Source of the DNA: Mermis nigrescens
Taxonomy: Eukaryota; Nematoda; Enoplea; Mermithida; Mermithidae
Length of the DNA: 64,000 nt
NCBI GenBank assembly: GCA_036768485.1
Contig: JAVLUZ010000745.1
Coordinates: 1 to 64,000 of the forward strand
Reading direction: 5' to 3'
Part shown: piece after piece, positions 38,161 to 57,429 of the stretch
Layout of the letters: each line of letters begins with the position of its first letter
How positions within the stretch are numbered: the first letter of the stretch is position 1
Translations under genes and position numbers: made by a program
The notes under the pieces: generated by a model
Database searches by the model: none
Told to the model about the DNA's origin: nothing
What the model saw: only the letters and a program-made list of their open reading frames with translations

Positions 38161-38720
38161 AGTAGTAATCCCGGCCCTTCTTGAGTCTCTGTGCTTAAGC
38201 ATATAGCACATGCTTAAGCATAGAGACTTCTGAAATTGTAGGCGCTAAAGTGCCTACAATGGGGCCATACTACACAATAAAGCACGAAAGTATAGGCGTG
38301 AATCGCCGAATTTTGGACATTCTATTTTGAGTATAGCGTGAAGCACCGAATTTTGGGCCATCCGAACTCGAGCATTCTATTTAAAACATGGCACAAAGCG
38401 CCGAATTTTGGGCCATACTACTACACAATAAAGCACGAAAGCTTAGGCGTGAAGCGTCAAACTCAAGCGTTCTATTTAAAACATGGCACGAAGCGCCGAA
38501 TTACGGGCCATACTACTACACAATAAAGCACGAAAGTTTAGGCCTGAAGCGCCGAATTTCGGACGTTCTATTTTGAGTATAGCCTGAATCGCCAGATTTT
38601 GGCCATACTACACATTAAATTTGTGATAAAGTAGACTGCACTATGACAGATCACATGATGCATGGGGCCTTAATAAATAAACATAAAAAGGCGCCAAACT
38701 TGACTTTACGTGTACTGTGT
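38161..38720 (+). repeat. Left terminal inverted repeat of the Polinton, with minisatellite
   Basis: The first roughly 160 bp match the reverse complement of the right end closely, including an internal palindrome around TGCTTAAGCATATAGCACA. After that come degenerate tandem units built on AAGCGCCGAATTTTGGGCC alternating with TTCTATTTAAAACATGG. The repeat number differs between the two ends. No gene seen. Confidence 0.85.
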
Positions 38721-39341
38721 GATGGAAGAACAGATGTTCAAGACCTAAATGAACCAACATCAAAAGCAAAGCGCCAAACTTGGACGGTACCTATGTATAT
38801 AATTTAACGAGAGTCTGTTTATTTCAGTTCATATCACTAGGTGTGTTATTTAGACAACAGGTGTGACTTACTTCTGTCATTGATGTATTTCATTCATTCT
38901 CTTGGAGTAGAATCATATCATTTATAGTTCATAGGCGCGAAGCAATTTTATCTTATGTGTCTACCTTCTCATTTATGTGTGTTAATCATTTTTAACTTGG
39001 AGCGGAATCATCTTATTACTTGTTCATCTATATATGTAGGTTCAGACAAAACCTATGTTATTTTTAAAATATCTAGTCAAACAAAATGCGCGCCAATTTT
39101 CCAATTTAGCCCTACTTTTGCGAGTATAAAAGCATGAAAAAATGAAGGACCATTGTATTTATTGTTTTACCTCTCGTTTTACTTGCTCAATATGCTATCT
39201 CTGTCTGGTCTACCGCGCGAAATTAAAGCGCCAGATATTCTAAATGTTGGACTTAAAGTCCAAAATTAGGGTAGCCCAAGTTTCGAAAGATTGGAATGGG
39301 GTAGCTAGAACAGATGCATCCCCAGTCGACAATAAATACAG

Positions 39342-39581
39342 TTATTAGTGGGATTTAAAGCTACAGGTCTCGATTCGACCAAATATACAGTCAATCTTTG
39401 ACCCGGCAACACTAATGGCGACGAAACCTTGTGGCCAATAAATCATGGGCCGTCCATCGACTTAATCATTTATGATAATCGTCTGAAAGGCCATACTACC
39501 AGTGATATTGAGGAAACATTCGAAGAACTTCTAAAGGTTTCTTATCCTGGAACAGTGGTTTTTACCAGTGAGAATTCCTGA
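39342..39581 (+). pseudogene. Unrecognised coding-like fragment in the left part of the Polinton
   Basis: One frame reads LLVGFKATGLDSTKYTVN, a TGA, then GPSIDLIIYDNRLKGHTTSD and EETFEELLKVSYPGTVVFTS. A second, diverged copy of its start (ELFIGLKATGLDWTEYTINH) lies at 40919-40978. Two similar copies that keep the same reading frame suggest real coding ancestry. I recognise no family. Confidence 0.4.
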
Positions 39582-40025
39582 ACTTACAAATGTGCACGTT
39601 TTCTGAAATCAATGTGATGCTCATGAATTTCTTATTTATAAATTCAAATTAATCAGTTTTTAAAATTAAATTTCATGCTAATTTTTATCATTTTGGTTGT
39701 ACGTTGAGAGAAAAAATTTTTTTATTGATTTTCAAGGCAAATTTCTCTACTCCTATTTTTCACTACTATATTGCTTTTTTTTGTTCGCTTTAATTTCTGC
39801 CATCAATTTATATGCAACACAAACGCTGCTCATGAGTCAATTTTTAATTATTCTCTATAAAAAATGACTGAAAAACCTTCTTTTACGTGTACTCCTCTTT
39901 GTGGTTTAGAAAAAAAATCAAAAAATAAAAACAACTTAATATTATAATTCTTTAGGATTGCAATTCAATAGCAACTGGGGCCCGCTGATTATGCAGCATT
40001 TTACTGACAGAGCCGAGAAGAAAAC

Positions 40026-40220
40026 CTAGAGCTCGATAATGTTGTCATTAATAGCATTGCGTGGATGCCATGCAATCTCTACAGGGTCAAAAAACTGACA
40101 GCTATAGATTGCTGTCTGGATTTCTGATCTTGTGGAATTAGTCCGAAACGTCAGTCCTGTGAAAATTGTGATTACTAACTGTATGCTACCCATACAGTAC
40201 AATAATTTAGTATCAGGCAT
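40026..40220 (-). CDS. Unrecognised ORF in the left part of the Polinton
   Basis: 64 codons, including IQLVITIFTGLTFRTNSTRS and CQFFDPVEIAWHPRNAIND. The amino-acid mix is not that of translated repeat DNA, but there is no family match I can name. It could be an exon or a decayed gene. Confidence 0.3.
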   Translation of the reverse strand: MPDTKLLYCMGSIQLVITIFTGLTFRTNSTRSEIQTAIYSCQFFDPVEIAWHPRNAINDNIIEL

Positions 40221-40498
40221 TTTTGCAAATGCCCTTACGCGTGACGTATGTACAATTCGACTTCGCTAATTGGAGCAAAGGCGACTTTACCACACTAACT
40301 TTGCACATGTCTAAATCATGCCGTTAACATTCTCATTTCGTGGTTCCAGCATCGTGTACTATATGTTTTAACGCTCATTTTTGGGCTTTGCGCATTTGGC
40401 CGAATTTCACCAATTTTTTCGATTCGTTTTTCATGCGTGGTGTGAATTTTTTCATGCTTAAAGGCTAAGCTCACTGCAAAGCCTAAATGGGTTGCGAC

Positions 40499-40763
40499 CA
40501 ATACTTTGGCAGCAAGAAAATTCTGGGGGGGGTGCAAAATTTTTTTGAAGGTCAAAAAATGGCCTTAAAAAAGGTGGTATGGCGATGAAAACACCATTTT
40601 TTGACGTTTCTCATCAAGCACTATCCATTGGCATCAAAAAATTGCGAAAAAACGAAAAAATTTATAAAAATTGAATTCTGGGGGGTATTTTGATTTCTGG
40701 GGGGTATTTTGGTTTCTGAGGGGGGGGGTGCATACCCCCCCAAACCCCCCACGCCCAGCTGTG
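40499..40763 (+). mobile_element. Family A MITE in the Polinton
   Basis: Full copy ending CGCCCAGCTGTG with the exact duplication GTTGCGAC on both sides (40491-40498, 40764-40771). Confidence 0.93.
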
Positions 40764-40918
40764 GTTGCGACCCATCACCACGCGGACAATAAAATAATAT
40801 TACGTAATTTGAATGCGTGTGAAGCATATTTTGTCTACGATTAAACTCTATGGGATGCCTGGTGCCTTTTTTAAAGCTAAATTAAGGTCCATCATTGGTA
40901 ATGAACCTTACAAAAATT

Positions 40919-41014
40919 GAGCTATTCATAGGATTAAAAGCCACAGGTCTTGATTGGACTGAATACACGATCAATCACATCATCTGTCCCCTACAACATA
41001 ATTATTATGGGTTA
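40919..41014 (+). pseudogene. Second copy of the KATGLD fragment
   Basis: Reads ELFIGLKATGLDWTEYTINH, then a short tail to a TGA. It is similar to 39342-39398. It lies between a family A MITE and the C-terminal TBP piece. Confidence 0.35.
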
Positions 41015-41153
41015 AAATGCGCTTGACCCGCCATCTTTTGGTTGACCAATGTCTACCTTTCTCTGTTGAAAAACATATCCAGGCATCACATAGAGTGTTG
41101 TTAATGTTTAGTGTATAAGTACGTTTGTTTGGAGGACATATCTTGAATAAACA

Positions 41154-41289
41154 TTAACTTTGTGCTCCAAATATTTTGAATGCATCAGTCAAACACATTA
41201 CGCGTTTTTGAAATCGTTTCAGTTGTGCTTCATTTCTTGCGCCCGTTATAACAATTCTTCCCGTTGTAAAAATAAGGGCAGAGGGTGGG
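41154..41289 (-). pseudogene. TATA-box-binding protein homologue, C-terminal part
   Basis: Reads PSALIFTTGRIVITGARNEA, then LKRFQKRVMCLTDAFKIFG and a stop at 41154-41156. It matches the TBP second-repeat end (LLIFVSGKVVLTGAK). The 8-bp duplication AGGGTGGG of the hAT element joins this piece to the N-terminal part at 46732-46739; the frame continues across the site. The whole protein would be about 180 residues, the size of the conserved two-repeat TBP core. Confidence 0.88.
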
Positions 41290-43149
41290 CAGTGATTGAC
41301 CGGGTACCCGGGCCCGGACCGGGCCCGGCCGGTCAGAGCAGGCTGGGTCCGGGCCCGGCTGAAAAGCACCGGGCCCGGGCCTAATTAAAACAAAGTTTTT
41401 GGTTTTTGGAATTTATGATGTTATTACAAAATCACAACATTAGCAACATTTGAATGTGAAAATCGATTAAACCATTCAGTCCAAGCTCCATGCATGCTAT
41501 ATTTTCCTAGACATCATTTTATGTCTAGTATCCTTCCTCCCAAAGCTCATTCATACAGAGCATTAATTATTAAATATATTAACATTTATACTTATTACTT
41601 CAAACATTTTGATGTTTATTGTAATGCTAACGATGACACAGCTGCAACACAACTTGTCTATTGATTGTGAAAATACAGTGTGAGTCACCATACACGCTTC
41701 ATGATCTATATCGTCCTTTCCTCTGTCTACGTTGTGATTCTTATGAGCATATTTTCTGCAGTTTTCACAAAACTCACCATCTCCTCTGCTCTCATACGTT
41801 TTCTGCTTCATATGCGCATATTCTTCCAAAATCAGTGAAGGCGCTTACTCTGCAACTGTACGCATACAGTTAGGCACGACTATTTGTAGGCAATAATATC
41901 CCTTGTGTGCTCCATCTCAAATACTTGCTCAATAATCTCAACGTGTACCGTTTTCATGTCAAAATGTTCTTAAAAGTTGACAAAATATTCTTTGATCCCA
42001 TTAATGAAGTTTTATTTTTAGGCTAACTTTATTTTACTACTATAGCTGGAATTTTACAAATGTCTTCTCCGATTTGGTTATTCTTTGATTTAAAAACAAG
42101 CGACCGTTCAACAGCTGTCTGTAAAAAGTGCAAAACTTCAATTTCCCTATGGTTCTGGACCAATTGCTTCTAAAATGGGGCAATGGCTCTGTAATCTGGC
42201 ATCTTAAATCAGCCCATGCTGAATTGTTTCAAGAGTACAAAAAGCTTATGAAAGAAAAAAACCAATGCTCGGCAGCAAAGGCTAAAGAAATGGCAGCAAT
42301 TTGGAATGAAGACGAGCCAAAAGTAATTAGTGCGAATGATCCATCTCAAATGAAGATCCAAGATGCGTTTCAGAATTGTATGAAATACGATGTGAAATCG
42401 ATTGAACAGGTTAAGCTTAACCACAAAATCTTCAATTGGCTTATGGATTGCACCTTGCCTTATACAACCATTGGCGAGAAAAGTTTTATAGAAATGATGA
42501 AACAGGCGAATCCACGGTGCAACATACCATTGGAGAAGTATTTTTGCACATTTATGATGCTGGATGTGTATGATCGCGTGAAAAGCAAAATATTGGAAAT
42601 TATAGAGCAAGATATTACGTGCTTTAGTGCAACTACTGACATGTGGACCAGCCAGTCCATGCATGCTTATGTTAGCCTCACGGTTCACTTTGTCACAAAT
42701 GATTGGGAAAGAAAAACAATCGTCTTGGGTTGCTTCCCATACAGCAAAGAATCGCATAGTGCTGTTGATATCGCGAACTTTTTGAATGAGTTACTTATAC
42801 AGTGGAATCTAACAAAAAAGTTACACGTTAATAGTCAGAGATAACGCATATAAAGCTTGTCAAAGCTTTAAGCACAAATAGTTGGCCTCACGTCGGCTGC
42901 TTTTTGCATACCTTGCAGCTTGTGGTTTCAAAATGCGTTTTGTCACAAAGAAGCAGTCATGAACGCGATTTCAAAATGCCAGACGTTAGTTAAAAAGTGC
43001 AAATCGAGCTCTACTACAACTGTGCCTTGAACGGCACCAAGAAAATAAAAATCTTGCCAAACACACGCTTATTTTATCAAACGACACTCACTTTCGCTAG
43101 AATAGTACTTATGATATGCTTGATCGAGTTCTGGTAGGTACTGCTGACA

Positions 43150-43285
43150 GACCTGGGCTTGAGGGGTTTTTGGGGTAACCTACCAGAAGGCAAAATACCT
43201 AACATGAAAATGGAAATACTCAACAATGCCCATGAATTTTTATATTTTTTGCTTTTTCACAATTTTTAGATTATTTTTCGCCATT
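43150..43285 (-). mobile_element. Degraded family A MITE piece in the hAT element
   Basis: Begins AGACCTGGGCTTGAGGGGTT and continues with a diverged family A body. The far end is lost. It lies just after the donor site of a transposase exon. Confidence 0.55.
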
Positions 43286-44697
43286 TTCTGTAGAAAAGTT
43301 CTAATTGCAAAGAAATATTATGACTTTTTAAAATAAACGTCTTTAAAGACATAATACTGCATCTTAAACCCGAGTTTTTAATCTTTTCCTTTATTTTGAA
43401 GTTTTAATTTCTAAGACGAGCGAATGAGCGCTAGAGCTCATTTGTGTGGCTAGTCTTTTAATCTTACTATGCAAAAAGTCCTCTGATTTTAAATTCTTTT
43501 TCACTTCAGTCTAATTATTTGACATCACGATTTAATATGAAAATTGTCATAAATTTAAAGTTTATTGATAATTTGTCTTATTCTTAATTTTTTAATTTAA
43601 GTTTAACGTAATCCTACCCACTAATTTAATCCGGCTTTGTGTGATTTGTAATCTAATAAAAACAAATACCCCATTTTTGTGAGTAGATCTAATGTTTGAA
43701 TCAAGGAAATAGACACAAAAAATTAAGCACATGCGATTTTACATCACCAAATTCAAACCAACTCAAAACAGAGCTTGTAATGTACAAAACTTATTTCAAC
43801 ATACTCGTTGTACCAAACCTAAAAAAAATTACTTCATTGCTGAAAAATTTAATATTTTTTCAATTATTATTATTAGAATAAGTTTAACTTTGTATCGCAA
43901 ATGCAATCAAACCATAATCTATCTATTTAAAGGAGCAAAAGCGCGCCATACGAGATTGCTTCGACGATGCAGCGTTCAATGTACAAACAGTAATTTTGGA
44001 CAATGATTGGCGAATTATACAAAGCGTAACTTATTTTGAATATTTTGCTTTAAATGTATGCATTGGTTCACAAGGTGCTGGGTTCAGCACAGTATTAAAA
44101 CAAAATTCTTAAGCTTTAGCTATAAATCAGATATGAAAGATCATCGGAAGGATATTTTGAAATTTCTGTTTAGAATTTGGTGTGGATCTTCAAAACGCCC
44201 TGTGAACGTGCAAAATGTTTTTTAGGTTGTAAATTTACTAAAACCATTCAAAGATGCGACAATATATGCACAACGTGTGAGAATAGCTGCATTTCAGAGG
44301 TCATTCCGCATTTGCTGTAAGAACAGATTTCCTTAATATTATTAAATAAATTATGCAGATCTTAATATCTTTATATCGCAGAAAAATAAAGCGCAATCTA
44401 TCCTCGGTAGATGCCACTTTTTGTGGCTCAACTAGCGACAAAATTGAATCATTGCTTAATTGTTATTTTTATGGCAAAGATGAGAGACAGCATTTTGAGA
44501 ACATTGAAGAAGAAAAATATTTTGCGTCCACTACACTGGTTGATCCCCGTTTCAAATTAAGCGTAAATAAAATAGTGTCTCACTCATTTTCTATAAATCA
44601 CTAACATTAATTTAATTAAAATAAGCTTATTAATTGATGCATATCATTAAGAAGATAAAAGAAACAAAAACACTTACTTATCTTAGTCATTATTGTG

Positions 44698-44969
44698 GCC
44701 TCCGTGGCTTAGTGGTTAACGATTCTAACTACAAGTTGCGGGCACGAGGTTCGAAACCACGCACTGTGGGTTCTTTCTTCGTGCAGTCGGCTAATTTTTC
44801 CAGCGGGACACTTACGTGATACCGCTGGTAACCATCCAGCAGGGCTCTTAAAAAGAGGTACTGCTGGTATAACTCGGTGAGATGATAATCTATTCCGCGG
44901 AGCACAATGGGCTTGTAGCCTGCGTGCTTGGGTCTCACAGGAGGTACCACCGCTACATCACCTATCACC
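44698..44969 (+). mobile_element. tRNA-derived SINE in a hAT intron
   Basis: The head resembles a tRNA, with an A box in GTGGCTTAGTGGTTAAC and a B box GGTTCGAAACC. A roughly 200-bp unrelated body follows. It is flanked by a perfect 14-bp direct repeat TAGTCATTATTGTG (44684-44697 and 44970-44983), as expected from LINE-mediated insertion. No poly(A) tail is evident. Confidence 0.9.
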
Positions 44970-46739
44970 TAGTCATTATTGTGAAAGTCTGATGATGCAG
45001 CTAAAAAGAAATAAAATCGACAAAATTCATGATACAATGAGTAATAAAAATGAGTATTAGTAGTTAAATAAGATATTAAATAATAAGAATAATTATTACA
45101 AAATTTCATTATTGGATCTTATTATACATTATTCATTTATTATCACTTCATATAAAAATAAAGTAAAATAATAAATAAGCAGTTTAAATTTCTTAAATAT
45201 TTTGATATGATTTATGAATGATGTATTTGGCATGATTGAAAGATGAGTTTGTAGTTATAGAATTTCGAGTTGCATAAGTTGTGAATTTAAAATTTATTTT
45301 CCAGCGTTTCTCTATAAAGCACAATGGACTTGTAGCAAAGCAAATGCTAATCAAAGAAGTCAAAAAAGTTGTAAAGAAATTGAGTGATTCCGGCAGAAAT
45401 TATCAAGTCAAAAAGGGCGAAAATTAGGTGAAATATAATTCAATTTTCTTAATAAAATAATGTATAATGTAATAATGTAAATAATGTACAATTGCATTGA
45501 GTTAACTTTGTATTTCATGTTTATTTTAAAAAAATTGAATTTGCCGTAGGGTAGGATCAAAAGAGCAATAAGTGCATGGGTAGAAAAATTCTTTTAATCT
45601 TTATGATAGAAATGTTATAAAACTTTCATTATGACAGTATTTCGCCAAATAAGTAAATTCCGATTTTAGCAATGGCGTGGAGTGTTACTGGTCATCTGAG
45701 GATAATTCTGAGGAAGATGCAGCTGCTTGCAGTTCAACTGAGATTGATAATTCTTTTACCAAAGCAGAGCGCCAGGTTACAACTTATTTGCACGAGCCTT
45801 TGTTAGAGAAGCTCAGCAATCCATTTGCTTTTTACAAAGCAGACGGCTATAAATATCCAGCAATTGCTGCAGTAAGTTCCATTAATGAATATTAATCATT
45901 TATAAATTAATACAGTCAAACTCGGATAATGCAAATCCCCTACGGAACAAATCAAGGCTAGAAATGTGCATTTATTTTTGCTTGTGTGCAAGTAACTGTA
46001 CTATTAAGCGTGAACATTTGCGAACTGAAAAATATGCTACGGTTTTTCGGCAAGTGAGCATTATTCTGAATAATTCCTTATCCAAGGTTTGCATTATCCA
46101 CGTTTGAGCGTAACTTATTTCACTATTTATAAAAATTCATTCATTACTAGAATAAAATCTGACAAAATATTCAAACTTGTATAGCATAACAAAATAACGT
46201 AGCCATTTTTACCTAAAAATGGATTATTCATACAAATATCCGAGCATAATGTAATAGGCAAGCATCAGCTCAATTGTATGTTTTCTAAAAAGTGCTAATA
46301 ACAAAAAGAAGATTAGTACAATATTGCTCTCAGTATAGCAAGCAACTCAATTTCAGCTTGCTAAAAGATATCTAAGCGCACCATGTGGCAACACTTCAAG
46401 CGAACGCGAATTTACCGCAGAAGGTGACATAGTGAACGACGAAAGGAACCGCCTTTTGCCAGAAAATGTGGATAAGTTGATATTTTTGAAATATAATCTG
46501 AAGGCTATTGGATCCGGTTCATTTGGTCTTAAGTCATAGTTATTGAGCTTGCAGATTAATGAATAAAGCTTCCTGACGTTGGTATGACTTAAATACTCAT
46601 ACATAAGTCAAAACTTCATATTTAAATACATTGAGCGTAAACTTACATACTCTTTATAGACATTCCATAGAATGTACCATATAATGTGCAGGCCCGGCCC
46701 AGGCCCGGTTTTTGGGCCCGGTCGATCACTGAGGGTGGG

Positions 46740-47146
46740 CCATCCGGAAATTGTATTCTTAAACCAGGAAATAATTCTTGTTCGTATTCAACAAATTTTT
46801 TTATGCGTTTGAGCAAGAGAACGTAAATTTATATTTGCGCCTAAATTTCCAGAGCCCACAATATTGTGAATTTAGTGTTCAGTTAGTTTTAGCTCGTATC
46901 CGCTTTTCTGCAGTATTTTGAAAATATTTTCATTCGCAATTTTATTTTCTTCTAGGCTTTTAGCACTGATGCATTCTAATTTTACCGAACTGAACAATAG
47001 ACCCCTTGCTTTTGGTTCGTCTATTCAAATTATTGCCGCATTGAATCTTTTGTGGTCAAATTCCACTCCATCACAAGTTCTCTTAATTTTATATAAATTT
47101 AAGAGCTTGAAGAGACTCGAGCTGCAGAAACAACATTTTGAATCAT
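46740..47146 (-). pseudogene. TATA-box-binding protein homologue, N-terminal part, in the Polinton
   Basis: Minus-strand gene directly after the minor capsid gene. From ATG 47146 it reads MIQNVVSAARV, like the first TBP repeat start. After a frameshift come EFDHKRFNAAI, a TGA (47025-47027), IDEPKARGLLFSS, CISAKSLEENKIANENIFKI and LQKSGYELKLTEH, a TAA (46872-46874), then IHNIVGSGNLGANINLRSLA, the start of the second repeat. A shift in a run of seven A leads into VEYEQELFPGLRIQF. Each piece aligns in order with the eukaryotic TBP core (QNIVSTV..., YNPKRFAAVIMRI..PR.TALIFSSGK, FKIQNIVGS, YEPELFPGLIY), but it is far too divergent for a recent host copy. The remainder lies beyond the hAT insertion at 41154-41289. 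Confidence 0.88.
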
Positions 47147-47184
47147 GACTATGATTGAGATTGATGAATTTTTAATAGACACGA

Positions 47185-47193
47185 CTATTTATA
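47185..47193 (-). promoter_or_regulatory. TATA box of the TBP-like gene
   Basis: TATAAATAG, a consensus TATA box, 39 bp before ATG 47146. It lies between the minor capsid stop and the TBP-like start. Confidence 0.65.
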
Positions 47194-47194
47194 T

Positions 47195-47896
47195 CTAAAA
47201 ATATGAAGGTTTAATCTTTTGAAAATGCAACTTGACAATCACTTTTCCGGAAATAAACGGTATTGATAAATCCAAATTGTCTTTTATCTTTATTTCTTTG
47301 CTAGAAATATCTTTTACGAGGACGGGTATGTAGTGAGGAAAATCATAGATTCTGTCAATGATGTTAGGGTATGTTCCTTCCACGTTTATGATGTGCAAAA
47401 GAGGGGCAGAAACGTCTCCTACGATCTGGGGTTCTAAAATATTTGCATAAATGTACAAGGTATCAAAACCACCCCCACCAAGTCCGGCTCCTTATCCAAC
47501 CATCCTGTATCATTTAGTAGTGTTTCTATAAATCCTAAAATATGTGCTATTCTTTTGGACAGTCTCACTGATTTCACAAAGCGTTTGAGTATCATTACAG
47601 AAACCCGTTTTATTGAGGTGTAATAATTGAATTCTACTCCTTCTACTTTTCTATACAAAATTTCATAGCCTCTATAAATTCCTGGATGGAGTCGTAGCAT
47701 CTTTCCTGCATTTGAAGTTTATATTCAATAGCATCTGTATCTATGATTTTAATTTCCGTTTTGTGTTTTCTTATTGTTTGCCAATTATGGGGGTAAATAA
47801 ATTCTGAGAGACCACACTCCCAATCACCAATTAATTTTAATTTTGCAGTAAATGTACAATAAACTTTGAAGGCATATTTTGTCTATCGTTTATCAT
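47195..47896 (-). pseudogene. Polinton minor capsid (penton, single jelly-roll) protein
   Basis: The start region at ATG 47896 (MINDRQ) is shifted against the main frame, which reads LKLIGDWECGLSEFIYPHNW, then RVSVMILKRFVKSVRLSKRI and AHILGF. After another shift near 47445 it continues YANILEPQIVGDVSAPLLHI, DFPHYIPVLVKDISSKEIKI and VIVKLHFQKIKP. These are the regular landmarks of the Polinton minor capsid protein. It ends 48 bp before the TBP-like gene. Confidence 0.88.
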
Positions 47897-47910
47897 GTTG
47901 CTAGGCAAAG

Positions 47911-48686
47911 TTAGGTAAAATTGATCAATTTTTGACAAATTTGGTTTATGATAAAATCTTCATCTATGACTGAGGTGTTTATCTTAAATAGACTATTTAC
48001 AAAACCTGTTACAAATTCGTCCACATAACTTTTATCTAAACTTTTTGAAATTAGTTTCATGGGTACCCCCCTGTACCTCCAAATTAAAAAATAAACACAC
48101 ATTTGGCCGCACGTAGACGTTAGTGGCTGCTGCACGCATTTTTTATTATGCTTAATTTTTGTAGCATACTGTAGAATATAATTTTGTGTTTGGTTATCAG
48201 GCACTAAGCCGTAGCTGTTGAAATAGTTGCACGAGTCATGCGCATCAAAATACATGCACGTCCAATGCAAACCAGGTTGGGTACTAGGGTCCATATCATT
48301 CGTGGGCAGCAAGAAAATTCTGGGGGCTTTGTGCAAGATTTTTTTGAAAGTCGAGAAATGACTCTAAAAATGGTGGTATGGCGATAAAAACACCATTTTT
48401 CAACGTTTCTCATCAAGCACTATCCATTGGCATCAAAAATTGCAAAAAAGACAAAAAAAATTTCAAAAATTGAATTCTGGGGGGGTATTTTGATTTCTGG
48501 GGTATTTTGGTTTCTGGGGGCTGCATACCCTCAAACCCCCCACGCCCAGGTGTGGTCCATATTCCTTACCAATGCAGCAGGCTTGCTAAAAATGGGTGGT
48601 AATTTATCATTTGGGAAAACACCAAGAAAATTTTGACCGACCGCTTGGTTGCCTTTTAATAGACTATTTAGTTGAAAGGTATTCAT
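47911..48686 (-). pseudogene. PRO: Polinton adenain-like cysteine protease, split by a MITE
   Basis: Starts MNTFQLNSLLKG at ATG 48686, 3 bp after the capsid gene, and contains FLGVFPNDKLPPIF. A family A MITE (48297-48554) with its 8-bp duplication then interrupts it. It resumes with GLHWTCMYFD (catalytic His region), FNSYGLVPDN and STCGQMCVYFLIWRYRG (catalytic Cys), ending at 47911. Adenovirus-type maturation proteases have this His-Asp/Glu-Cys layout. In Polintons it is inferred to mature capsid proteins. Confidence 0.9.
48297..48554 (+). mobile_element. Family A MITE inserted in the Polinton protease
   Basis: Full-length copy starting CATTCGTGGGCAGC and ending CGCCCAGGTGTG, with the exact 8-bp duplication GTCCATAT on both sides (48289-48296, 48555-48562). 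It is younger than the Polinton. Confidence 0.95.
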
Positions 48687-48688
48687 AC

Positions 48689-50010
48689 TTAAGCATTATA
48701 ATCATACATTACGTTTCTGTTCTTATTTAGCATTACTAAATTATCAAACTCGGCATAAACAATCACTTCAAGGCCCGTATTGGGGATTTTTTTGGCAAAT
48801 GATATTTCAATACTAGTTGTACCTTCCCTAATTAAATCCCAATGTCCGCCATCATCTTTGTCTGGAGTCAAATCGAATGCAAACAGACACAGACCGTTTT
48901 TGAACCCTTCTCTTGTCACACCGTTCCCTTTATTGTCCCGACTAATATCAAGTGTTTCAAATAATTGATCAAAAGCTCTAAGGTACTTGTTATTTTTAAA
49001 GTCTAGCCTGAATGGGTGGGAGGGGAAGGTAACGCCCCCGCAAATCACTTTTGCATCATTTATGCTGTATGATTTAAAATTGAAAGGAGATTTTTTTATA
49101 TTTCTCCTATATGCATCTGCATCTACACATCCAAAAATAATACGTCTAGGAAGCTGCCCTGAAAATAAGGTGTTAAGGAGGGTAAATTGACAAGTGCTAG
49201 GTATATGTATATTCATCATCGTAACTCTGCGCACAGGATATTTAATAGTGTTTGATGCAAGTACTCTTTTGATAGCTAGTCCAGTGCTTTCTAAAATTTC
49301 TGCCTTTCATATGCAAAACTTCATTTGTTGAATACTTAAATGCACATTTTCAGGACTCTTAAAACTTTGCAAAACAAACGCATCAGGATTTCTGTTTAAT
49401 TCAAGCCTGACATCAGTATAATTTAGTAAAAACCTGTCTTGTAAAAATAAATCAATGTGTAGTGGCACACTTAATTCAACTTTAGTCTTATCAGCAAAAA
49501 ATTCTATGCGTTTCCTCAATCCATAATTGTTTTCTGTGTCATTATAACCCGGACTATCTACTATGTACAAAGCAGATTGCAAGCGCAAATTTTTAGCATC
49601 CCACCCATAATTTAGTTCAGTCTCTAAAAATGCTTGGTATGCATATTTATCTCCGCTGTCATGTACAAGCTTATTATTTAACAAAAGTTTCACCTGACAA
49701 AATGGAGTTTTGGCGATCAGATTTATGGGGCCTACATCAGGTGCTGTGCCATCAGCCTGAGGCGTTCCTTTAGATATAGAAATTTGCATGTTAATATAAT
49801 TTTTATGTAGCTGTAAGAAATGAGGATCTGGAGGAATATGAAATTTGTACGGGCCCTCATCAGTAATAGGGTTGGTCAGATTTATCTCATCCCAATACCC
49901 TCATTTTGTGGCTACCTGGGTATACGGTACAGTGAAAAAATCAAGTTCGCTTTTGGTACTAGCAACTGAGAATGAATTGATTAAAGACACTATTTCTTTT
50001 AAGTTTGTTT
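48689..50010 (-). pseudogene. MCP: Polinton major capsid protein (double jelly-roll)
   Basis: About 440 codons in one frame, broken by TGA at 49901-49903 and 49307-49309. Landmarks include KSELDFFTVPYTQ, CQVKLLLNNKLVHDSGDKYA, LDLFLQDRFLLNYTD-like strands, SGQLPRRIIFGCVDADAYRR, KKSPFNFKSYSIN, FDLTPDKDDGGHWDLIREG and VYAEFDNLVMLNKNRNVMYD. This is the protein once annotated as F54H12.2-like and now known as the Polinton major capsid protein. The start codon is not preserved. The gene ends 3 bp from the protease ATG. Confidence 0.94.
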
Positions 50011-50039
50011 TTGAGTTGAAAATAAGTCAACACAAAGTT

Positions 50040-50047
50040 CTTTTATA
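50040..50047 (-). promoter_or_regulatory. TATA box of the major capsid gene
   Basis: TATAAAAGAACTTTGTG on the minus strand, upstream of the first recognisable capsid codons. It shares TATAAAAGAACTTT with the promoter of the small QKGG-type gene. Confidence 0.6.
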
Positions 50048-50070
50048 GGCTTGAGTCGGGTGCCCAAACC

Positions 50071-50404
50071 TCACCCCGTTTGCTGTTGTAATTTGTCACT
50101 AGCTTGGTTTAGCAAATTAGCTGCGCCTTCTTTCCCATGAGCCTGTATTAATTGAACAATATTACGGCCATTGAGCACATCTGTGGCAATATATGCACTC
50201 GTAGATAGAGCTTGTTTTCCCACACTAGATGCTGCTGATTTAGAAATGGGTATAGCCATCCAGAAAAGAGAACGGAAAAAACTACCAAGTCCAGCCCCCT
50301 TTGATATGGCATTACCCTGCGATACTGTATCCGACCTGGGAAGCCTGGTTGGTATAGTAGTCTAACCAAGCATTAAAGTTATCTGGATTGACTTGTTGTC
50401 TCAT
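50071..50404 (-). pseudogene. Glycine-rich Polinton virion-type protein (YYTNQA.. type)
   Basis: Starts MRQQVNPDNFNAWLDYYTNQ with ATG 50404, then GYSIAG, a frameshift near 50310, GAGLGSFFRSLFWMAIPISK and a helical C-terminal half ending DKLQQQTG. The Gly-rich start followed by a hydrophobic, basic segment is typical of a conserved Polinton gene placed just before MCP, sometimes compared with adenovirus minor core or membrane-lytic proteins. That comparison is not proven here. TATAAAAG lies 43 bp upstream. Confidence 0.7.
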
Positions 50405-50438
50405 TTTTTGTAAAATTCTTTTAGAGTTTAATTATGCT

Positions 50439-50632
50439 TTACGTTTCTTTTATAGATTTATCCAGTATTTCAGTGGCTTTTTCTCTCCTGACAATGGCAT
50501 AGAAAATGACTGAGATGGCGATACATAAACTTGTTTTTGCAATAAATTCAATCGACTTTTATTTACAATAGATTCTTTTGGAATATTTTCATCGATTAAT
50601 TTTTGGAGAAAAATTTCAGCACGATAGGTGCT
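50439..50632 (-). pseudogene. Small putative membrane protein, unrecognised
   Basis: One frame encodes SRLNFIAKTSLCIAISVIF and then REKATEILDKSIKET before TAA 50439-50441. The hydrophobic stretch would span a membrane. No start codon is in frame. It follows the coiled-coil gene and precedes the next gene by about 35 bp. Confidence 0.35.
50447..50454 (-). promoter_or_regulatory. TATA box of the glycine-rich gene
   Basis: TATAAAAG, 43 bp before ATG 50404. It overlaps the end of the preceding small ORF. Confidence 0.55.
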
Positions 50633-50640
50633 TCAGATTT

Positions 50641-51110
50641 TTAAATACGTGAAAAATTGGAAACTAAATCAACAATGTTCGATCCTGCAATTTTATTACC
50701 ATCAATAATCATTTCTATTTTGTCCGCCCATTTTATGTGTGGGCTTTTCCGCGCATATTCAAGTAATAAAGAGGCTTGTTTCTGCCATTTTTGGGGCACT
50801 GTGCTAAAAACTGCTTCTTCTACAACATCTGTCTTTATAGGTTCCACAGGCTCTTCATTTTCTTGCTTGGCTGTTTGAAACTTTTTAATATCCGCTCTCT
50901 CTTCCTTAATTTTGAGCTGTAACGGTTTTTCAAGTTCTTGCTTAGCTGTTTGATACCTATGCAAAATTTGATTATATTGTAAAATTTTAGCGTCTGCAGG
51001 TAACGAATTATCATTTAAAATATTCATCATTTCACTATCTAAATTTGACACGTACCTAGAAGTGCTTTCATTCCCCCTCCCCGAGCAAGCTCGTGGGGGA
51101 CCAGAATCAT
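50641..51110 (-). pseudogene. Polinton coiled-coil protein starting MILVPHEL
   Basis: The family start MILVPHELARGGG is at ATG 51110. A frameshift near 51060 leads into LDSEMMNILNDNSLPADAKI, then a glutamine/glutamate/lysine-rich helical stretch and the conserved end LEYARKSPHIKWADKIEMII with GSNIVDLVSNF. Internally repeated TAKQE motifs suggest a coiled coil. Proteins of this pattern accompany the capsid genes of Polintons; I infer a structural role. Confidence 0.75.
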
Positions 51111-51124
51111 TTTGTTTGTATGAA

Positions 51125-51465
51125 TCATTTAATAATTGCGTCTGCTAAAAGTTGCCCTGCAATTCCTGATATAGGCGCGAGTAAGATAGGAAGGTAACCA
51201 CCCTTTTGTACCAATATGTCCTTTTTCTTTTTTACTGATATTTTTGAGGCAGACAGGTTGCACAGTTGTGTCTTAAATTTACTCAATTTTTCGAACTCGA
51301 GCGGTTTTAAAGGGACATTACCATTTAACACGCTGAGTATGCATTTGCATAAGCATAAAATTAGGTCATTTTCGGCATGTTCTAATATCACCTACATTGC
51401 TTAGGTTTTGCCTTAGACAACACGTCAATGTAACTAATGTATTTTTGTAAACGTTCTGGAGCCAT
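51125..51465 (-). pseudogene. Conserved small Polinton protein (KKK..LVQKGGFLP type)
   Basis: Starts MAPERLQKYISYIDVLSKA. After one frameshift near 51395 it continues LEHAENDLILCLCKCILSVL, NGNVPLKP and SVKKKKDILVQKGGYLPILL, with a hydrophobic C-terminus. Proteins of this pattern are regular in animal Polintons and are thought to be virion-associated; the exact role is not known to me. TATAAAAG lies 31 bp upstream, inside the end of the ATPase gene. Confidence 0.75.
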
Positions 51466-51495
51466 TTTTGGTAAAGATAAAAGCACATGAAAGTT

Positions 51496-51503
51496 CTTTT
51501 ATA
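51496..51503 (-). promoter_or_regulatory. TATA box of the small QKGG-type gene
   Basis: TATAAAAGAACTTT, 31 bp before ATG 51465. The same 14 bases recur upstream of the major capsid gene (50034-50047). Confidence 0.6.
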
Positions 51504-52106
51504 CTTTTTTGGTGTAAACATTAAGATTTTTTGAAAAATTTTAGCACGGAGACATAAATTTTTAGGTGTAGATTGTGTCAAGTCTACTAAAGGGAAAGAA
51601 AATGCTTCTTTTGTAGCATTATTAAAGGCTTCCAGAAAAAACTTAGGATTATGAGGGTAAAGCTGATGGGCTAATGTTTGTACCTGGAGCCAATCAGACG
51701 GATTCTTCATTAAAACTAAAGATTCTGTGTTTATGCGACATGTTCTTAGACCTTTAAAAAATATGTTTTGAATGATATTTACGACAGAAATATCCCAATG
51801 ATGACAACCGCGTGTAAATAACACATCATTTTTTGCTTCTTGCATAAGATCGTCTATTATAATTAATTGTTGTTCACTGCTATGTTGCCTAACTAGACTT
51901 AAATCAGGGGGTCCTTCCATGAAAATTATGCTAGTTTCCATGTCTTTATGCAAACTCCTATCTTCTGCTAAAAACCACCATATAAATTTTGGAGGTAGAA
52001 ATAAAATTATTTGCATTCTTTGCGAGCTGTTTAACAAAAGTTGATTTTCCAGCCTTTGTGGGGCTGACTACATACAAGTAAAGGGGTGTTTAAATCTGAG
52101 ATCCAT
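51499..52106 (-). pseudogene. ATP: Polinton packaging ATPase (FtsK/HerA, A32-like)
   Basis: Starts MDLRFKHPFT. A Walker A segment PTKAGKST lies in a shifted frame. It is followed by IIFMEGPPDL, the Walker B segment QLIIIDDLMQEAKND, then LFTRGCHHWDISVVNIIQNIFF, LVLMKNPSDWLQVQTLAHQL and FNNATKEAFSFPLVDL. This order matches the genome-packaging ATPase of Polintons and related dsDNA viruses. The end is placed at TAA 51499-51501 by the usual family length. Frameshifts lie near the Walker A site and near 51960. Confidence 0.9.
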
Positions 52107-52258
52107 TTTCATTACGTGTATGAATTGTGCTTTTTTCTAATATAGATGAAGCTCTTCTGCCAGCTGCTTATGCAGCTGCCCATCCTGTGGGATGAGGACC
52201 CAGAGCTTCAGCGCAGGCCAAATTTTTTTTGATTTTTTTTCAGGCAAATGTACATCTT

Positions 52259-52560
52259 TTACAAATTGAGGTTTTCTATATTGCTCATGATACACTCAAT
52301 TTGCGTATCAACAGTATTTTTGGTTGACAGTGTCCAATAGCAAAATGCCACAAGCCGCGCCATTTTTTTTCCTGTCAACTCGCGCTGCACGTTCTAGTCT
52401 GCAGCACCTGCTTTCCACTGATCCTTGTAGGCATCAGAGAAGCGGTTCCAAAAATATGTTGCAACCCAAGCAAGCTGGTAATTGTTGTATGGAAACAACA
52501 AAAAATGCGAGCCAGCTTGGAACAAAAGGTAACAAATATTTGCTGACCAGAAGAAGACAT
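52259..52560 (-). pseudogene. Small Polinton ORF, unrecognised, frameshifted
   Basis: Starts MSSSGQQIFVTF at ATG 52560. Another frame shows WVATYFWNRFSDAYKDQWK, rich in aromatic residues, and the third ends MSNIENLNL at TAA 52259-52261. TATATAAG lies about 60 bp upstream in a block shared with the gene to its right. Function unknown. Confidence 0.35.
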
Positions 52561-52619
52561 TTTTGACCACACAGTAAGTGAAAATTTTTGAGAATGATGC
52601 TTTTTTAAATTTTCAATCC

Positions 52620-52627
52620 CTTATATA
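52620..52627 (-). promoter_or_regulatory. TATA box upstream of the MSSSGQQ ORF
   Basis: TATATAAGGGATTGAAAATT on the minus strand, near-identical to the block at 52989-53014. It lies 60 bp before ATG 52560 and about 15 bp after the end of the preceding gene. Confidence 0.55.
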
Positions 52628-52637
52628 GACTCGAGCT

Positions 52638-52954
52638 CTATTCTGATGCTATTTTTAGCAAGCTTTCTTTCCGTTGTGAAGCCATATTTTTTCTTTCTTC
52701 CAAGTATCTTTCAAGAACTGCAATCCCTGCCTCTTGTCTTGCCTTATTGTATTCCAAACATTTCGGGCACATTGGTATAGAAAAAATAAGTTATCCGAAT
52801 CTGTTCTAAAACAGTCTCATTCTTCACAAATTTTTTGGCAAAAATAACAAAGTTTGATCATTAGTGCATACATTGGCCGAGGCAAGTTGCGGGAGCACAG
52901 CTGAATTGGAGCTTTGATCTTCCTTGAACATGATTCAGGAGCAGAAGAGTCCAT
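52638..52954 (-). pseudogene. Small Cys-rich Polinton protein, unrecognised
   Basis: Starts MDSSAPESCSRKIKAPIQ, continues with LCYFCQKICEE and, in a second frame, with a CPKCLEYNKARQEAG segment and an alpha-helical, charged end closing at TAG 52638-52640. Spaced Cys pairs suggest zinc binding. It has its own TATA box 53 bp upstream. The start and TATA fit well, but the frame is broken once. No family recognised. Confidence 0.45.
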
Positions 52955-53006
52955 TTTTTGACTTGAACAAAAATTTCAAAAATTTGGATTTTTAAATTTT
53001 CAATCC

Positions 53007-53014
53007 CTTTTATA
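53007..53014 (-). promoter_or_regulatory. TATA box of the small Cys-rich gene
   Basis: TATAAAAGGG followed by ATTGAAAATTTAAAAA. The same block recurs upstream of the neighbouring gene. It lies 53 bp before ATG 52954. Confidence 0.6.
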
Positions 53015-53086
53015 CTTTCTGAGATGAGCCTATTTTTAGCACAAAAAAAAACCGAATTACTTTTATCTGAAGTTTCTTATATAGAT

Positions 53087-54113
53087 TCATAATTTGATTA
53101 GTTGACCAACCCAACTATTAAACTTTTCAGGAAAACCGCGCCATTTAAATAAATATTCCATTTTTCTTCCTTTTTTGCGTGTGTTTAAAACTTTTTCTAC
53201 TATGTAAACTTCATTGATAATGTTAACTTTTTGTAGTTCTCGCTCATAGAATACGCCTTCTAATTTCTCACCCATCTGTTCCTTTAGTGTGTAAACAGGT
53301 GGATTGTGTTTAAGTTTTTTATCTATTACGAACGTTTCTTCACTCTAATTGGGCTCGTAGCCCTTTTCAAAAGTTCTTTTAAGCTTACTTATGCGAACTT
53401 TATCTCCTATATTAAATTAAAAAATTATGTTTTTATTGTCAATTTTGAAATCTTTTCGTAAAATTTGAGACTCGTTATTATTAACATTGGCCGGTTTGAT
53501 GCCTATTGTACGATGTTTTGTATTATTGTAACCTTCAATCAGATCATCTAAAATATTAATGTATCTATAAGCGTTATGTTTTGTAAAATAACGCCACATG
53601 TGTTCTTTCAAAGTGCGGTCAAAACGCTTGACTACACATGCCTTGAGCTCACTGTTTGTTGTGAAGAAATCAATATCATTTTCTTTCAAAAAGGCTTGAA
53701 ATTGTTTATTTAAAAATTCTGTGCCTGCGTCACTTTGCACCTTTTCTGGTTTTTGACCTTTATCTAAAATAAGTTTGAAAGCATTGAGAATCGATGCTGC
53801 GCTTTTATTTTTTACGGGTATACTCCATGCATACTTGCTAAACACGTCTATACAGTTTAAGAGAAAAACATAACCGTCATTATGCTTTTTCAGTGATTGC
53901 AAGTCTACTAAATCTATAGCCCATTCATTGCTCATCTATCCTGGAAACTATAACTTTATTGTGCACATATTTTCTTCTTGCCGGTTTATGTAAAGTGTAG
54001 GTTGGTTGGGTTTTGAGCCAATTTATCACCTCCTTTTTAGGTAGTTTTGTATGTCTTCTCAGAGGTTCAACCCCCATGTACCCTGTCTGAGGATTGTAAT
54101 AATTTTTTTCCAT
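53087..54113 (-). pseudogene. INT: Polinton retroviral-type integrase with chromodomain
   Basis: Starts MEKNYYNPQTGYMG. A frameshift near 53935 separates the N-terminal part (KTQPTYTLHKPARRKYVHNK) from the catalytic core. The core shows IDLVDLQSL, then NCIDVFSKYAWSIPVKNKSA, QSDAGTEFLNKQF and VVKRFDRTLKEHMWRYF. The family has VVERFNRTLKE, so the third catalytic acid (Glu) is Lys here. A C-terminal chromodomain lies at 53087-53275 (EKVLNTRKKGRKMEYLFKW). In the family this enzyme inserts the element and makes the 6-bp duplication. Confidence 0.93.
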
Positions 54114-54116
54114 ACT

Positions 54117-54445
54117 TCAATAGAAATATAATGCGTTTTTACCTTTTGCTACCGTGCAGAAAATATTAGTAAACTTTTTGCAAAATTTGACTACAATTTT
54201 TAATCTTTTGTTTCGTGAAATCTTATAAATACAATCATCACATTTAATAGCAAAGCTTATATCGTCACGTTCTGGCTGAGGTCCTTCCAAAAAAAGTACA
54301 ACATATACTTATCTTTCTTGATAACGTTAATTTCACTTGAGCAATTCTCACAGAGTAAAAATGAAAAAGTTGGAGACTTTTTACCTATGTTTAAAACGCA
54401 CTGTTTAGAACCAGCTTCGAAAAATCTGCACCATCCCCATTGAAA
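54117..54445 (-). pseudogene. Cysteine-rich small protein with two CxxC pairs, frameshifted
   Basis: One frame encodes FSFLLCENCSSEINVIKK and the next frame, after a shift in a run of T/A, ISFAIKCDDCIYKISRNKR and a lysine-rich end closing at TGA 54117-54119. The spaced CENC and CDDC pairs suggest one metal-binding knuckle. It ends 4 bp before the integrase start. No start codon is clear and I recognise no family. Confidence 0.45.
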
Positions 54446-54467
54446 GCATGGTTTCTAATGCAGAAAA

Positions 54468-54704
54468 TTACAAATCTTGTAGTGGTATTTCGATTTGGGC
54501 TTCATTGAACACTGCAGACAATTGCCAAGATCCATTTCTACTAGAGCTCAAGCTACTTAAACCTCTATGCAACTTTTTGATTTGTTTCTTCGAAAGCTTG
54601 CACAAAACTAAAATTGATAGAACAATTATGTGAACAATGCACCCCAAAATTTCATTATAAATACGTTGTAAGTGGTATCTACTTATGCAAGTACCACTCA
54701 ACAT
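54468..54704 (-). CDS. Small putative membrane protein ORF in the Polinton
   Basis: 78 codons from ATG 54704. One hydrophobic segment near residues 19-35 (ILGCIVHIIVLSILVLC) is followed by a basic patch, KLSKKQIKK, as in a single-pass protein. TATAAAAG lies 27 bp upstream. It starts exactly where polymerase homology ends, so it could be an acquired gene or a chance ORF in rearranged DNA. I recognise no family. Confidence 0.35.
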   Translation of the reverse strand: MLSGTCISRYHLQRIYNEILGCIVHIIVLSILVLCKLSKKQIKKLHRGLSSLSSSRNGSWQLSAVFNEAQIEIPLQDL

Positions 54705-54710
54705 TTTTTA

Positions 54711-57287
54711 TTATTTTTGAACAAGAAAATCTTTTATAACTGTGCATGCTTCTCTACCACTGCAAAATGCAGTGCCTGGTGCCAGCGCAGGGAGCTGAGC
54801 ATGTATCGGCACCATGTTTTTTTCATTTAAAAATTTGATCTAAGTTCTTGATTCTGCTCGCACTCCCACATTTCAGTCACAGTGTACCCTTGCGCCTCTA
54901 TTGTTTTGCATTGCCTTATCATGTTTTGGTATGCCTCTTCAGCTGTTGTTATTTGGTCGGCTGTAAGCTTTGTTCGCTTTTTCATGCATTTTGGACAGCC
55001 GTGCCAAAAGCATCCATTAAATTCATATATGGTGTTTTCGTGTATGCTGTCAACTCAATAGTTGCCTATTTTTTGCTCACCCATATTGCGAGCATGCCTT
55101 ATATTAATTTTTTGCGTTTTGCTTACCCACTTTAACCATTCAATTGCCGTGATTAATTGTTTTTCCACTCATCTTTAGCCACCGTGCGGTACAATGCCAA
55201 TTGTATTTGCCCACAAATGAGTTGATCTAAAAACTTTGTTGCAAGCGCTTGCGATTGTTAAAGATGTTTCAAATGGGTCTAAGCCAGTTTCAGCCAAAAA
55301 TAATTTTTGAAATTTGAGGCAGCACCGGCGGAGTATATCAACATCCGACTCACAGTAGGCCAAAAGTTTGGTCCTAAAATTGAACGTTTTGCCTTTCTGC
55401 TATTGATGCCAATTGTAAAAGTTTTCTCGGCTCTTGGGGTTCATTGTAGCTGGGGAGTAGAACCGGGCATCTGGCCACTCAGCCACATAATTTTTGTTTT
55501 TGGTCGTGTTGAAAAGGTGCGGAAAATAACCTTTTTTCAATTCCGCTTCATCAAAAGTTTTTGGCAAAGCTGACAAAGCCATTGGCAAGAAATTGAAGGA
55601 ATCAATCAATTTTACACAGCCTGCTCTTAAGCTCATGATTTCAAGCCCCCGGGTGACTATTGTGGGTACTATGGCCTGTTTGAAAAGGTATTTTAGAATA
55701 AAATGGCCATCAAAGCCTTTTGCATTATGTGCAATTGCTATAGCATTTTCGAGGCCAAATAAAAAATTGCAAAATTCATTTTTGTAGTTTTTTCCAAAAA
55801 ATATTTGGCAATTTTAGCCGCAATGTTTGCAAATTTCAATTGGTAAATCCATGCACTTCACACATACGACGTGCGCTACACATAAATTTGGCTTATGCTC
55901 TAATCAAATTCCAACATTGGTATTGCCAGATCTTTTCTTGGTGTTTTGAAATCAAAAAACACATATTTTATGTTTTTCTTTTCATTCTTTTCAGTTTCTA
56001 GCAGTTTCATGTAACATTTATGATTGTTCTTAGGCATGTCTGTTTTGCAGATCTTGCAGTAATATGGTTGCTTCTGTGCCGCTTAATTTTGTCAAGCCTG
56101 CTAATATGTCGGCCACATTTTTTGCATCGCTTCATTTGTTGGCATAATGAAAACCCATTTTTGCCAACTTTCTTGTGATTGTCAAAACATTGCTGGCCTC
56201 TAAAGAGTCGACCACAATCCTTGCATTTTATCAGAGCCATGTTTGGGCATATAAGTCCTTGACAACAAGGGCAAACTCTGGAGCAGCAGTGCTCGTTTTT
56301 GTTATTGTATCCCTTGTTACATGATTCACAAAAGTAGCCGTGATTCATTAAGCCAGCCATACTTCCAATAACGTCAAAATGATTATTATTATGATACAGA
56401 TTTACAACTTTTTCTGATATGGGGCCTTCAAAAATTATAGCATTTCAAAAATCGGCGCTAAAAACTTTAATTTGAAAATTTTGCAATGCAGCCTTCAATG
56501 CTTGCAGCTCTGCTATACCTCAAGGTCCTACATGATCTTCAAGACCCGCTTTATTCATTAGTTCTAGCGCTGCCGTATGCTGTGCTTTTCTTCTGGGGGT
56601 ATCTTTTTTACAAATGTTTTTATATCGCCATTCTAAAGTTTTGTCCATAGGCTTTTCTATATGATCTAAACGCGCTTTTGCAACGACTAGTGCCCTGGGC
56701 AAACATAAATTATCATTATTGTTAATTTTTACAAAACATTGTTTTGCCTTCATTTCTTTTTCTAACTTTATAAATCTGCGTTTATGATGGCCTGAGCCAC
56801 TTGGCGGACTAACGTGTACTATTTTTATATGAGTCTCTGGTTGTTCAAGTTGCACTTCCTTGTTTGACTGTAAAATCCGCTCGATAGTATGTACAATTTG
56901 TTCACCATTTATTTGTCCCCCTTTTCAAAAGGGTAGAATGGCTGGCTTCTTTAACGTTGGATGCGTAATTTGCAGGCCCACCATGTCCGTTGTGTTGGAA
57001 CCGTCCAAAATTTTTGTGACCACACTATCGAAAATTTCGGCCAAATTTTTTCCCAAATCGAGACAATCCAAATTCTCAAAATTTAATGTGTGCGCTCGCC
57101 CTTCTGTGTTGAACCATTTTATTATCTCCGTTTCTGGCTCCCCTAACTCATAAAATTCCTCTGGCGGGTACCACTTGTCTACAACTTCCAAACTGTCCTC
57201 CCACTCCTCCCGCATTTCTTTGTCCGTTTCGTACCACACGTCTTGTGTTGAAAGTTCTTCCATTTTGAAGTCAGAATCCATTTTCAA
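54711..57287 (-). pseudogene. POLB: Polinton protein-primed DNA polymerase B, lacking the palm domain
   Basis: Starts at ATG 57287 or the in-frame ATG six bases later. Recognisable in order: the N-terminal Polinton domain (KILDGSNTTDMVGLQITHP, then NDNLCLPRALVVAKARLD); a cysteine-rich region at 56007-56360 (YFCESCNKGYNN, CKDCGRLFRGQ); and the 3'-5' exonuclease with KYVFFDFK, AHNAKGFDGHF, KLIDSFNFLPMALSALPKTF and YCESDVDILRR. The EFNGCFWHGCPKCMKK segment then follows. The first exonuclease motif has Lys where the family has the catalytic Glu (about 55944-55958). Homology stops near 54711, so the polymerase palm with its YxDTDS motif is missing. Several frameshifts are present. Confidence 0.92.
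54731..54738 (-). promoter_or_regulatory. TATA box upstream of the 78-codon ORF
   Basis: TATAAAAG, 27 bp before ATG 54704. It overlaps the last codons of the polymerase remnant. Confidence 0.4.
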
Positions 57288-57371
57288 TGAGAAAACAATT
57301 TCAGAGCGGAAATCCAGAAGTTGAAAAGAATTGAAGATTTCAGAGAATGATTTTTTCTTGCCTGTTCCCTC

Positions 57372-57379
57372 CTTTTATA
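57372..57379 (-). promoter_or_regulatory. TATA box of Polinton POLB
   Basis: TATAAAAG on the minus strand, about 85 bp upstream of ATG 57287. It lies between the terminal repeat and the gene. Confidence 0.6.
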
Positions 57380-57429
57380 CGTTCTGAGGGACCGGAAATT
57401 GTTGGACTTTGGACTTTGTCACGCGCTCA

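Follow-up and report, generated by a model that had tools for sequence, protein, structure and literature searches.

The window analyzed here is a stretch of 64,000 nucleotides from the insect-parasitic mermithid nematode Mermis nigrescens (contig JAVLUZ010000745.1 of assembly GCA_036768485.1, positions 1 to 64,000 of the forward strand), and it contains a Polinton/Maverick element in which a decayed gene for a TATA-box-binding protein (TBP) follows the minor capsid gene. We examine this gene, its intact relatives elsewhere in the genome, their promoters and their origin. Several of the Polinton families that this genome contains carry a TBP gene, in different gene orders, and its product probably binds the TATA boxes of the element and recruits host TFIIB and RNA polymerase II (Pol II).

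The TBP gene of the window lies on the minus strand in two pieces, a 5' piece with repeat 1 and the first half of repeat 2 (46731..47152) and a 3' piece with the end of repeat 2 (41172..41290). When reading frames from these pieces were searched separately against Pfam, the TBP family PF00352 was the top family for four of six, in the correct order and register, with profile spans of 45-84 in repeat 1 and of 4-26, 20-45 and 52-78 in repeat 2 (expectation values, E, of 1.2e-4, 5.7e-4, 0.025 and 1.7e-5, respectively, of which only the last passes the Pfam cut-off). The other two frames gave no Pfam match, nor did a window piece used as a single-frame read-through protein query find any match. 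Two window pieces also matched solved TBP structures, with best E of 4.7e-7 and 1.8e-6. The copies nearest to the window gene are those at loci L035 to L037, and the intact coding sequence of L035 covers both pieces, at a DNA identity of 89.1% in 47152-46731 (423 columns, two gaps) and of 96.6% in 41290-41172 (119 columns); the two matches overlap by 10 bases, including the 8-bp duplication of an insert. The preliminary description had taken the two pieces for one complete two-repeat TBP core, and the ordered profile matches and the L035 alignment bear this out. Its placing of the ATG on the same strand as the minor capsid (penton) gene and 48 bp from the penton stop also holds, as does the TATA box that it assigned to the gene: the box, TATAAATA (47186..47193, minus strand), recurs identically upstream of the intact L035 and L037 genes, with similar flanks. 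A point to which that description gave little stress is that the window copy is a pseudogene, because it contains stops, frame changes and the insert.

The insert that splits the gene spans 41290..46731 (5442 bp) and is bounded by an 8-bp duplication, AGGGTGGG, at 41282-41289 and 46732-46739; its termini read CAGTGATTGACCGGG and CAGTGATCGACCGGG, with CAGTG ends. Both the insertion and its perfect duplication had been described before and are confirmed. As for the hAT label given with them, a Pfam search with the 239-residue frame of the insert found no match to a hAT family at E<=1, and we call the insert "hAT-like" from its duplication and CAGTG ends.

The Polinton itself occupies 38161..57800 (19,640 bp in all, or about 14 kb when the 5,442-bp insert is left out). 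It ends in inverted terminal repeats, just outside which a 6-bp duplication, AACCAA, stands at 38155-38160 and 57801-57806. All of its recognized genes are on the minus strand. Beside the TBP gene is the decayed penton gene (47198..47894), which matches the L018 penton by tblastn in three pieces of 80%, 38% and 47% identity; it has no Pfam match, and we take it to be a penton from gene order. An interrupted adenain-like cysteine protease gene (47920..48686; PF00770, E 4.6e-5; tblastn 69% and 66%) adjoins the major capsid gene (48692..50026), which is 73% identical over 451 columns to the L018 capsid, a protein whose double jelly roll match is below threshold (E 4.1e-4). Three small, decayed genes conserved among Polintons and found by tblastn, p145, p234 and p114 (50005..51465), are followed by a packaging ATPase gene (51528..52100; tblastn 63% over 192 amino acids to the L017 ATPase, itself matching Pox_A32 below threshold at E 5.7e-4). 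The remainder comprises a p127 gene (52775-52927) with relatives in other Polinton families, an integrase gene (53090..54113; PF00665, E 7.4e-12; tblastn 58% and 52%) and pieces of a protein-primed DNA polymerase B (PolB; 55178..55813; PF03175, E 2.8e-12 and 1.3e-4). With PolB, integrase, ATPase, protease, capsid, inverted terminal repeats and a 6-bp duplication, the element is a Polinton.

The claim that a Polinton carries a TBP proved correct, and the gene is spread more widely than had been proposed. A PF00352 scan of the assembly of the window (523,963,438 bases, 860 contigs) gave 150 scored matches among 2552 candidates, 142 of them without an internal stop. These merge to 139 loci and, after removal of two host TBP exons, leave at least 137 TBP loci. 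Each of six intact relatives tested contains two PF00352 stretches above the curated cut-off (E 1.4e-41 to 3.4e-50). Twenty TBP neighborhoods of 10 kb were then examined for hallmark genes (integrase, PolB, ATPase, protease, capsid, penton), with open reading frames from nine of the same 20 loci as queries, of which integrase, PolB and protease are backed by Pfam. Hallmark genes were present in 17 of the 20, at L009 and L010 as short integrase fragments only. The gene order varies among families. At L017, L018 and L026 it is capsid, protease, penton and TBP, as in the window; at L015, L019 and L028 integrase and ATPase genes flank the TBP gene, which is on the opposite strand; and at L012 to L014 it stands beside an F-box gene and a small p127 gene. 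In the 800 bp downstream of 12 pentons, picked from 162 matches and 48-96% identical to the L018 penton (classes at 42-43% being left out), a TBP on the strand of the penton was found in all 12 cases; six of these TBPs are open over 175-179 residues, that of L038 is open over 151, and five are broken. A TBP beside the minor capsid gene is thus shared with other Polintons, in which intact copies are found at the same position.

Some loci contain more than one TBP. Two TBPs of different clades lie inside 3 kb at L023 (1792-2307 and 4630-5130), a second penton-TBP fragment is close to the first at L018 (7984-8801), and three TBP matches recur at a spacing of about 8.4 kb in C51 (3876189-3893195) of the same assembly. 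We offer nesting or duplication of elements as a reading of these arrangements. At L019 a gap of 44 bp (5234-5277) separates the starts of the TBP and ATPase genes, which face away from each other; TATA boxes for the two directions lie inside this gap or next to it.

In a sample of 41 pairs of intact copies, the ratio of nonsynonymous to synonymous substitution rates (dN/dS) was 0.15-0.27 in 11 of the 12 pairs with dS below 1, which shows purifying selection in the tested pairs; the remaining 29 pairs are uninformative because their dS is above 2.2 or saturated. Residues at the functional sites of TBP were surveyed in 16 Polinton copies and five metagenomic TBPs. All four DNA-intercalating phenylalanines are present in 14 of the 16 Polinton proteins and in all five metagenomic ones (the exceptions are L009, with tyrosine at one site, and L016, with a gap and a tyrosine), and the TFIIB-contact glutamate pair is kept in 15 of the 16. 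The saddle fold was modeled for one metagenomic relative, P0004, for which structure prediction yields a TBP saddle with a predicted local distance difference test score (pLDDT) of 95.7 and a template modeling (TM) score of 0.93 to human TBP. This model had 44 PDB matches at E<=0.001, and among the matches listed all are TBP-containing entries, including TBP-DNA complexes.

Promoters of the element genes were compared in a set of 44 genes, obtained from 54 rows by dropping seven of L026, two of L028 and one of L037, which did not start at ATG or were near-duplicates, and by correcting one start. Of these 44 genes, 32 have a TATAWA motif no more than 100 bp from the ATG, as compared to 10.5 (standard deviation 2.5) in 200 shuffles. 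TATA boxes upstream of element genes are therefore present beyond chance. In 28 of these 32 genes the match nearest to -42 falls at -50 to -32, a range that is flattered by the choice, among several matches, of the position nearest -42. The motif AGTCTATAAA occurs in eight of the 44 upstream stretches, as compared to 0.04 in shuffles. In a second set of 56 non-redundant upstream stretches out of 80, a GTC form of the box precedes all three capsid genes, three of four p145 genes, three of six x10x genes (x10x is a small gene described below) and the single p127 gene.

Two mixture-model trees rooted on archaea bear on the origin of these proteins; P0010 is present twice under two names in the second. 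In both, a clade that lies outside the eukaryotic TBPs unites 13 Polinton TBPs with five metagenomic ones (support 99/94 and 99/95), and the clade of L018 branches below eukaryotic and mirus-like TBPs. The five metagenomic members among the matches listed (P0004, P0012, P0021, P0045 and P0121) are known from proteins on short contigs and come from searches of which the best 120 of 5557 and the best 120 of 158 matches were used. A single origin of all Polinton TBPs is not rejected (approximately unbiased test, p-AU 0.295 and 0.099), and identity among their five broad clades is 29-48% (99 pairs). The TBP of the host is a normal gene with introns (L001, L002) that groups with a nematode TBP (100/98). 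The existence of that gene, together with the pseudogene state of the window copy, would fit a recent retrocopy of host TBP that had landed in a Polinton and was no element gene at all. This explanation is extremely improbable. Host TBP is 86% identical to a bird TBP, whereas the Polinton proteins are 31-43% identical to host TBP; a placement with animal TBPs, the comparison that the preliminary description had called for, is rejected in seven of seven tests (p-AU 0.0027, 0.0095, 0.0063 and 0.0009; 0.0017, 0.0054 and 0.0006); and the gene has a shared position in many elements and is under purifying selection. The trees and the shared position thus rule out a recent retrocopy. The Polinton TBPs are not a recent host copy, and we limit the claim to this and attach no date because fast evolution can mimic depth. 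A possible though less likely origin is that an element long ago captured a cellular TBP or TRF2 (TBPL1/TLF), a relative of TBP, and that rapid change in the viral lineage then gave the proteins their deep appearance. Long branches can draw sequences rootward, and grouping with human TBPL1, represented by one sequence, is not rejected for the L018 clade (p-AU 0.24) or for all Polinton TBPs (0.06). Against a capture of this kind is the supported, archaea-rooted position of the clade of 13 and five outside the eukaryotic TBPs and, for the route through TRF2, the loss from TBPL1 of three of the four phenylalanines that most Polinton TBPs keep, with TBPL1 identity of 21-28% for the three Polinton TBPs compared.

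With regard to function, we consider it probable that this TBP, a member of the gene complement in several Polinton families, binds at TATA boxes of the element's own genes and recruits host TFIIB and Pol II. The TBP gene, with its plain TATA box promoter, would first be read by host factors, and the viral TBP would then favor element promoters together with host TFIIB and Pol II; some of the favored promoters, those of the major capsid, p145, p127 and some x10x genes, carry a shared AGTC-TATAAA form. Element genes would on this account be transcribed through host Pol II by way of the viral TBP. The host polymerase is assumed because no RNA polymerase subunit was found among the element open reading frames searched against Pfam, which did not cover whole elements; no TFIIB was identified in Polintons either, and no systematic search for one was made. 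Of the earlier proposal that the element carries its own basal transcription factor, the presence of the gene in the element stands, and the role as a basal factor is suggested by the kept DNA- and TFIIB-contact residues and by the TATA boxes. We regard as doubtful a stronger version in which an early phase of TBP expression from plain TATA boxes precedes a later phase of capsid-side genes with AGTC-TATAAA boxes, served by that TBP and host Pol II, and in which the viral TBP lineages are deep enough to pre-date the diversification of the TBPs of living eukaryotes.

Several observations weigh against the probable reading. TATA boxes are not universal, being found at -80 to -20 in 14 of 17 TBP genes and 21 of 39 other genes and mostly missing before p234 (none of four), PolB (none of two) and protease genes (one of five), and the GTC form is present in none of 17 TBP genes and 10 of 39 other genes (Fisher p 0.023, a post hoc comparison of related families). 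Among the surveyed sites, the second-repeat asparagine and the first-repeat threonine, both DNA-contact sites, are replaced in six and 11 of the 16 Polinton TBPs, respectively. The TFIIA-side tyrosine is missing from all 16, which is weak evidence because archaeal TBPs lack it too and a nematode TBP has phenylalanine there. The pair L033/L039 has a dN/dS of 0.65 on 10 differences, and three of the 20 neighborhoods (L021, L024 and L027) contain no hallmark gene. Finally, scans of IMG/VR with a capsid piece, the L018 TBP, and alignments of capsid, L025-clade TBP and penton recovered no relatives. A scan with a broad TBP alignment found three TBP loci, none recognized as Polinton as far as examined.

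Two other roles would use the same protein differently. The kept DNA- and TFIIB-contact residues would also permit a TBP that acts against the host, titrating TFIIB or occupying host TATA boxes so that host transcription falls; such a role has no need of the element's own TATA boxes, which exceed chance, or of their shared extended form, and we consider it unlikely. Still less likely is a structural factor that bends DNA, for example in packaging or replication, with the TATA boxes read by host TBP alone. The gene does adjoin capsid genes in the family of the window, whereas in other families it is remote from the capsid genes: either it stands, on the opposite strand, with integrase and ATPase genes on its two sides, or an F-box gene is its neighbor. 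The TFIIB glutamate pair, moreover, is kept in 15 of 16 copies.

Small genes recur in the vicinity of the TBP gene. F-box reading frames lie near it at L013 (5778-6641, plus strand) and L011 (6264-7079, minus strand), with matches to the Pfam F-box-like family at E 1.8e-11 and 3.9e-8, and tblastn relatives occur in L012, L014, L020 and L023; the presence of F-box proteins near TBP in several Polinton families suggests use of the host ubiquitin ligase machinery. The p127 gene is found in several Polinton families, often near TBP (L013:4475-4855, L019:2637-2975, L009:4175-4537), and encodes a zinc ribbon-like CxxC...CPRC pattern without a Pfam or PHROG match; its product is possibly a transcription partner of TBP. 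Related x10x frames of 102-108 residues are located near TBP in several families (L011:3929-4237, L022:5470-5784, L019:3023-3349), with a TATA box in all six non-redundant copies and no convincing match in Pfam or PHROGs. The accessory frames as a whole gave nothing convincing against PHROGs.

Other features of the window are repeats and fragments. A repeat of about 200 bp lies in the gap between the two protease pieces (48331-48555), with copies near the left end of the element (40501-40714) and, inverted, just beyond its right end (57837-57938). At 58058-58711 there is an inverted repeat with 184-nt arms, 93% complementary and spaced by 286 nt, which is likely a foldback element or one resembling a miniature inverted-repeat transposable element (MITE). 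A second Polinton has left fragments at 61398-62611, where one piece resembles x238 (59%) and another an integrase (54%). Rfam gave no match in the window.

TBPs encoded by viruses are already known from mirusviruses and giant viruses, and as far as the literature covered extends, what is new is a TBP in Polintons. TBP is reported in 59% of mirusvirus (Mirusviricota) genomes (PMC10132985). These proteins resemble the Polinton TBPs in being virus-encoded and in fold. The mirus-like TBPs L029 to L031 differ in forming their own supported clade with eukaryotic TBPs (100/98; 100/100) that includes no Polinton TBP, though no test of one clade for Polinton TBPs and L029 to L031 was made; on the mirus-like contig L030 the TBP lies beside RNA polymerase subunits and a trypsin, and no such subunits are among the tested Polinton frames. 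The giant virus CpV-BQ1 encodes a TBP and a TFIIB, for which a role in diverting the RNA polymerase of the host onto viral genes has been proposed (PMC12085832), the same idea as proposed here for the Polinton TBP. Megavirus chilensis has a TBP together with its own polymerase subunits (PMC11464507). Giant viruses have large genomes, in contrast to the Polinton here. From cellular TBP, with which they share the two PF00352 repeats and, in most copies, the phenylalanines and glutamates described above, the Polinton proteins differ in their length of 165-185 residues without an N-terminal extension, in their low identity to host TBP and in the consistent absence of the TFIIA-side tyrosine.

The elements share PolB, integrase, ATPase, protease, major capsid, penton, inverted terminal repeats and the 6-bp duplication with known Polintons/Mavericks and adintoviruses, and differ from them in the TBP, F-box and p127 genes, which are not known from the described Polinton gene set. 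Polintons are reported to make up 6.5 Mb of the 359.1-Mb long-read assembly of Romanomermis culicivorax (PMC10879605). No TBP of a Polinton, Maverick or adintovirus was found in the open-licence full-text literature, whose scope leaves out key work on Polintons of nematodes, on MELD viruses and on how Polintons evolved, so absence from print is not established. A term search of a paper on Polinton origins (PMC11071308) found neither "transcription" nor "TATA".

The published viral TBPs that we found come from mirusviruses and from giant viruses, all with large genomes. With a TBP gene of its own, an animal element of some 14 kb would show how little a virus needs in order to direct host Pol II at the core promoter, and control of Polinton expression becomes testable. 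The many diverged TBPs of one genome also make it possible to ask which surfaces of TBP are indispensable.

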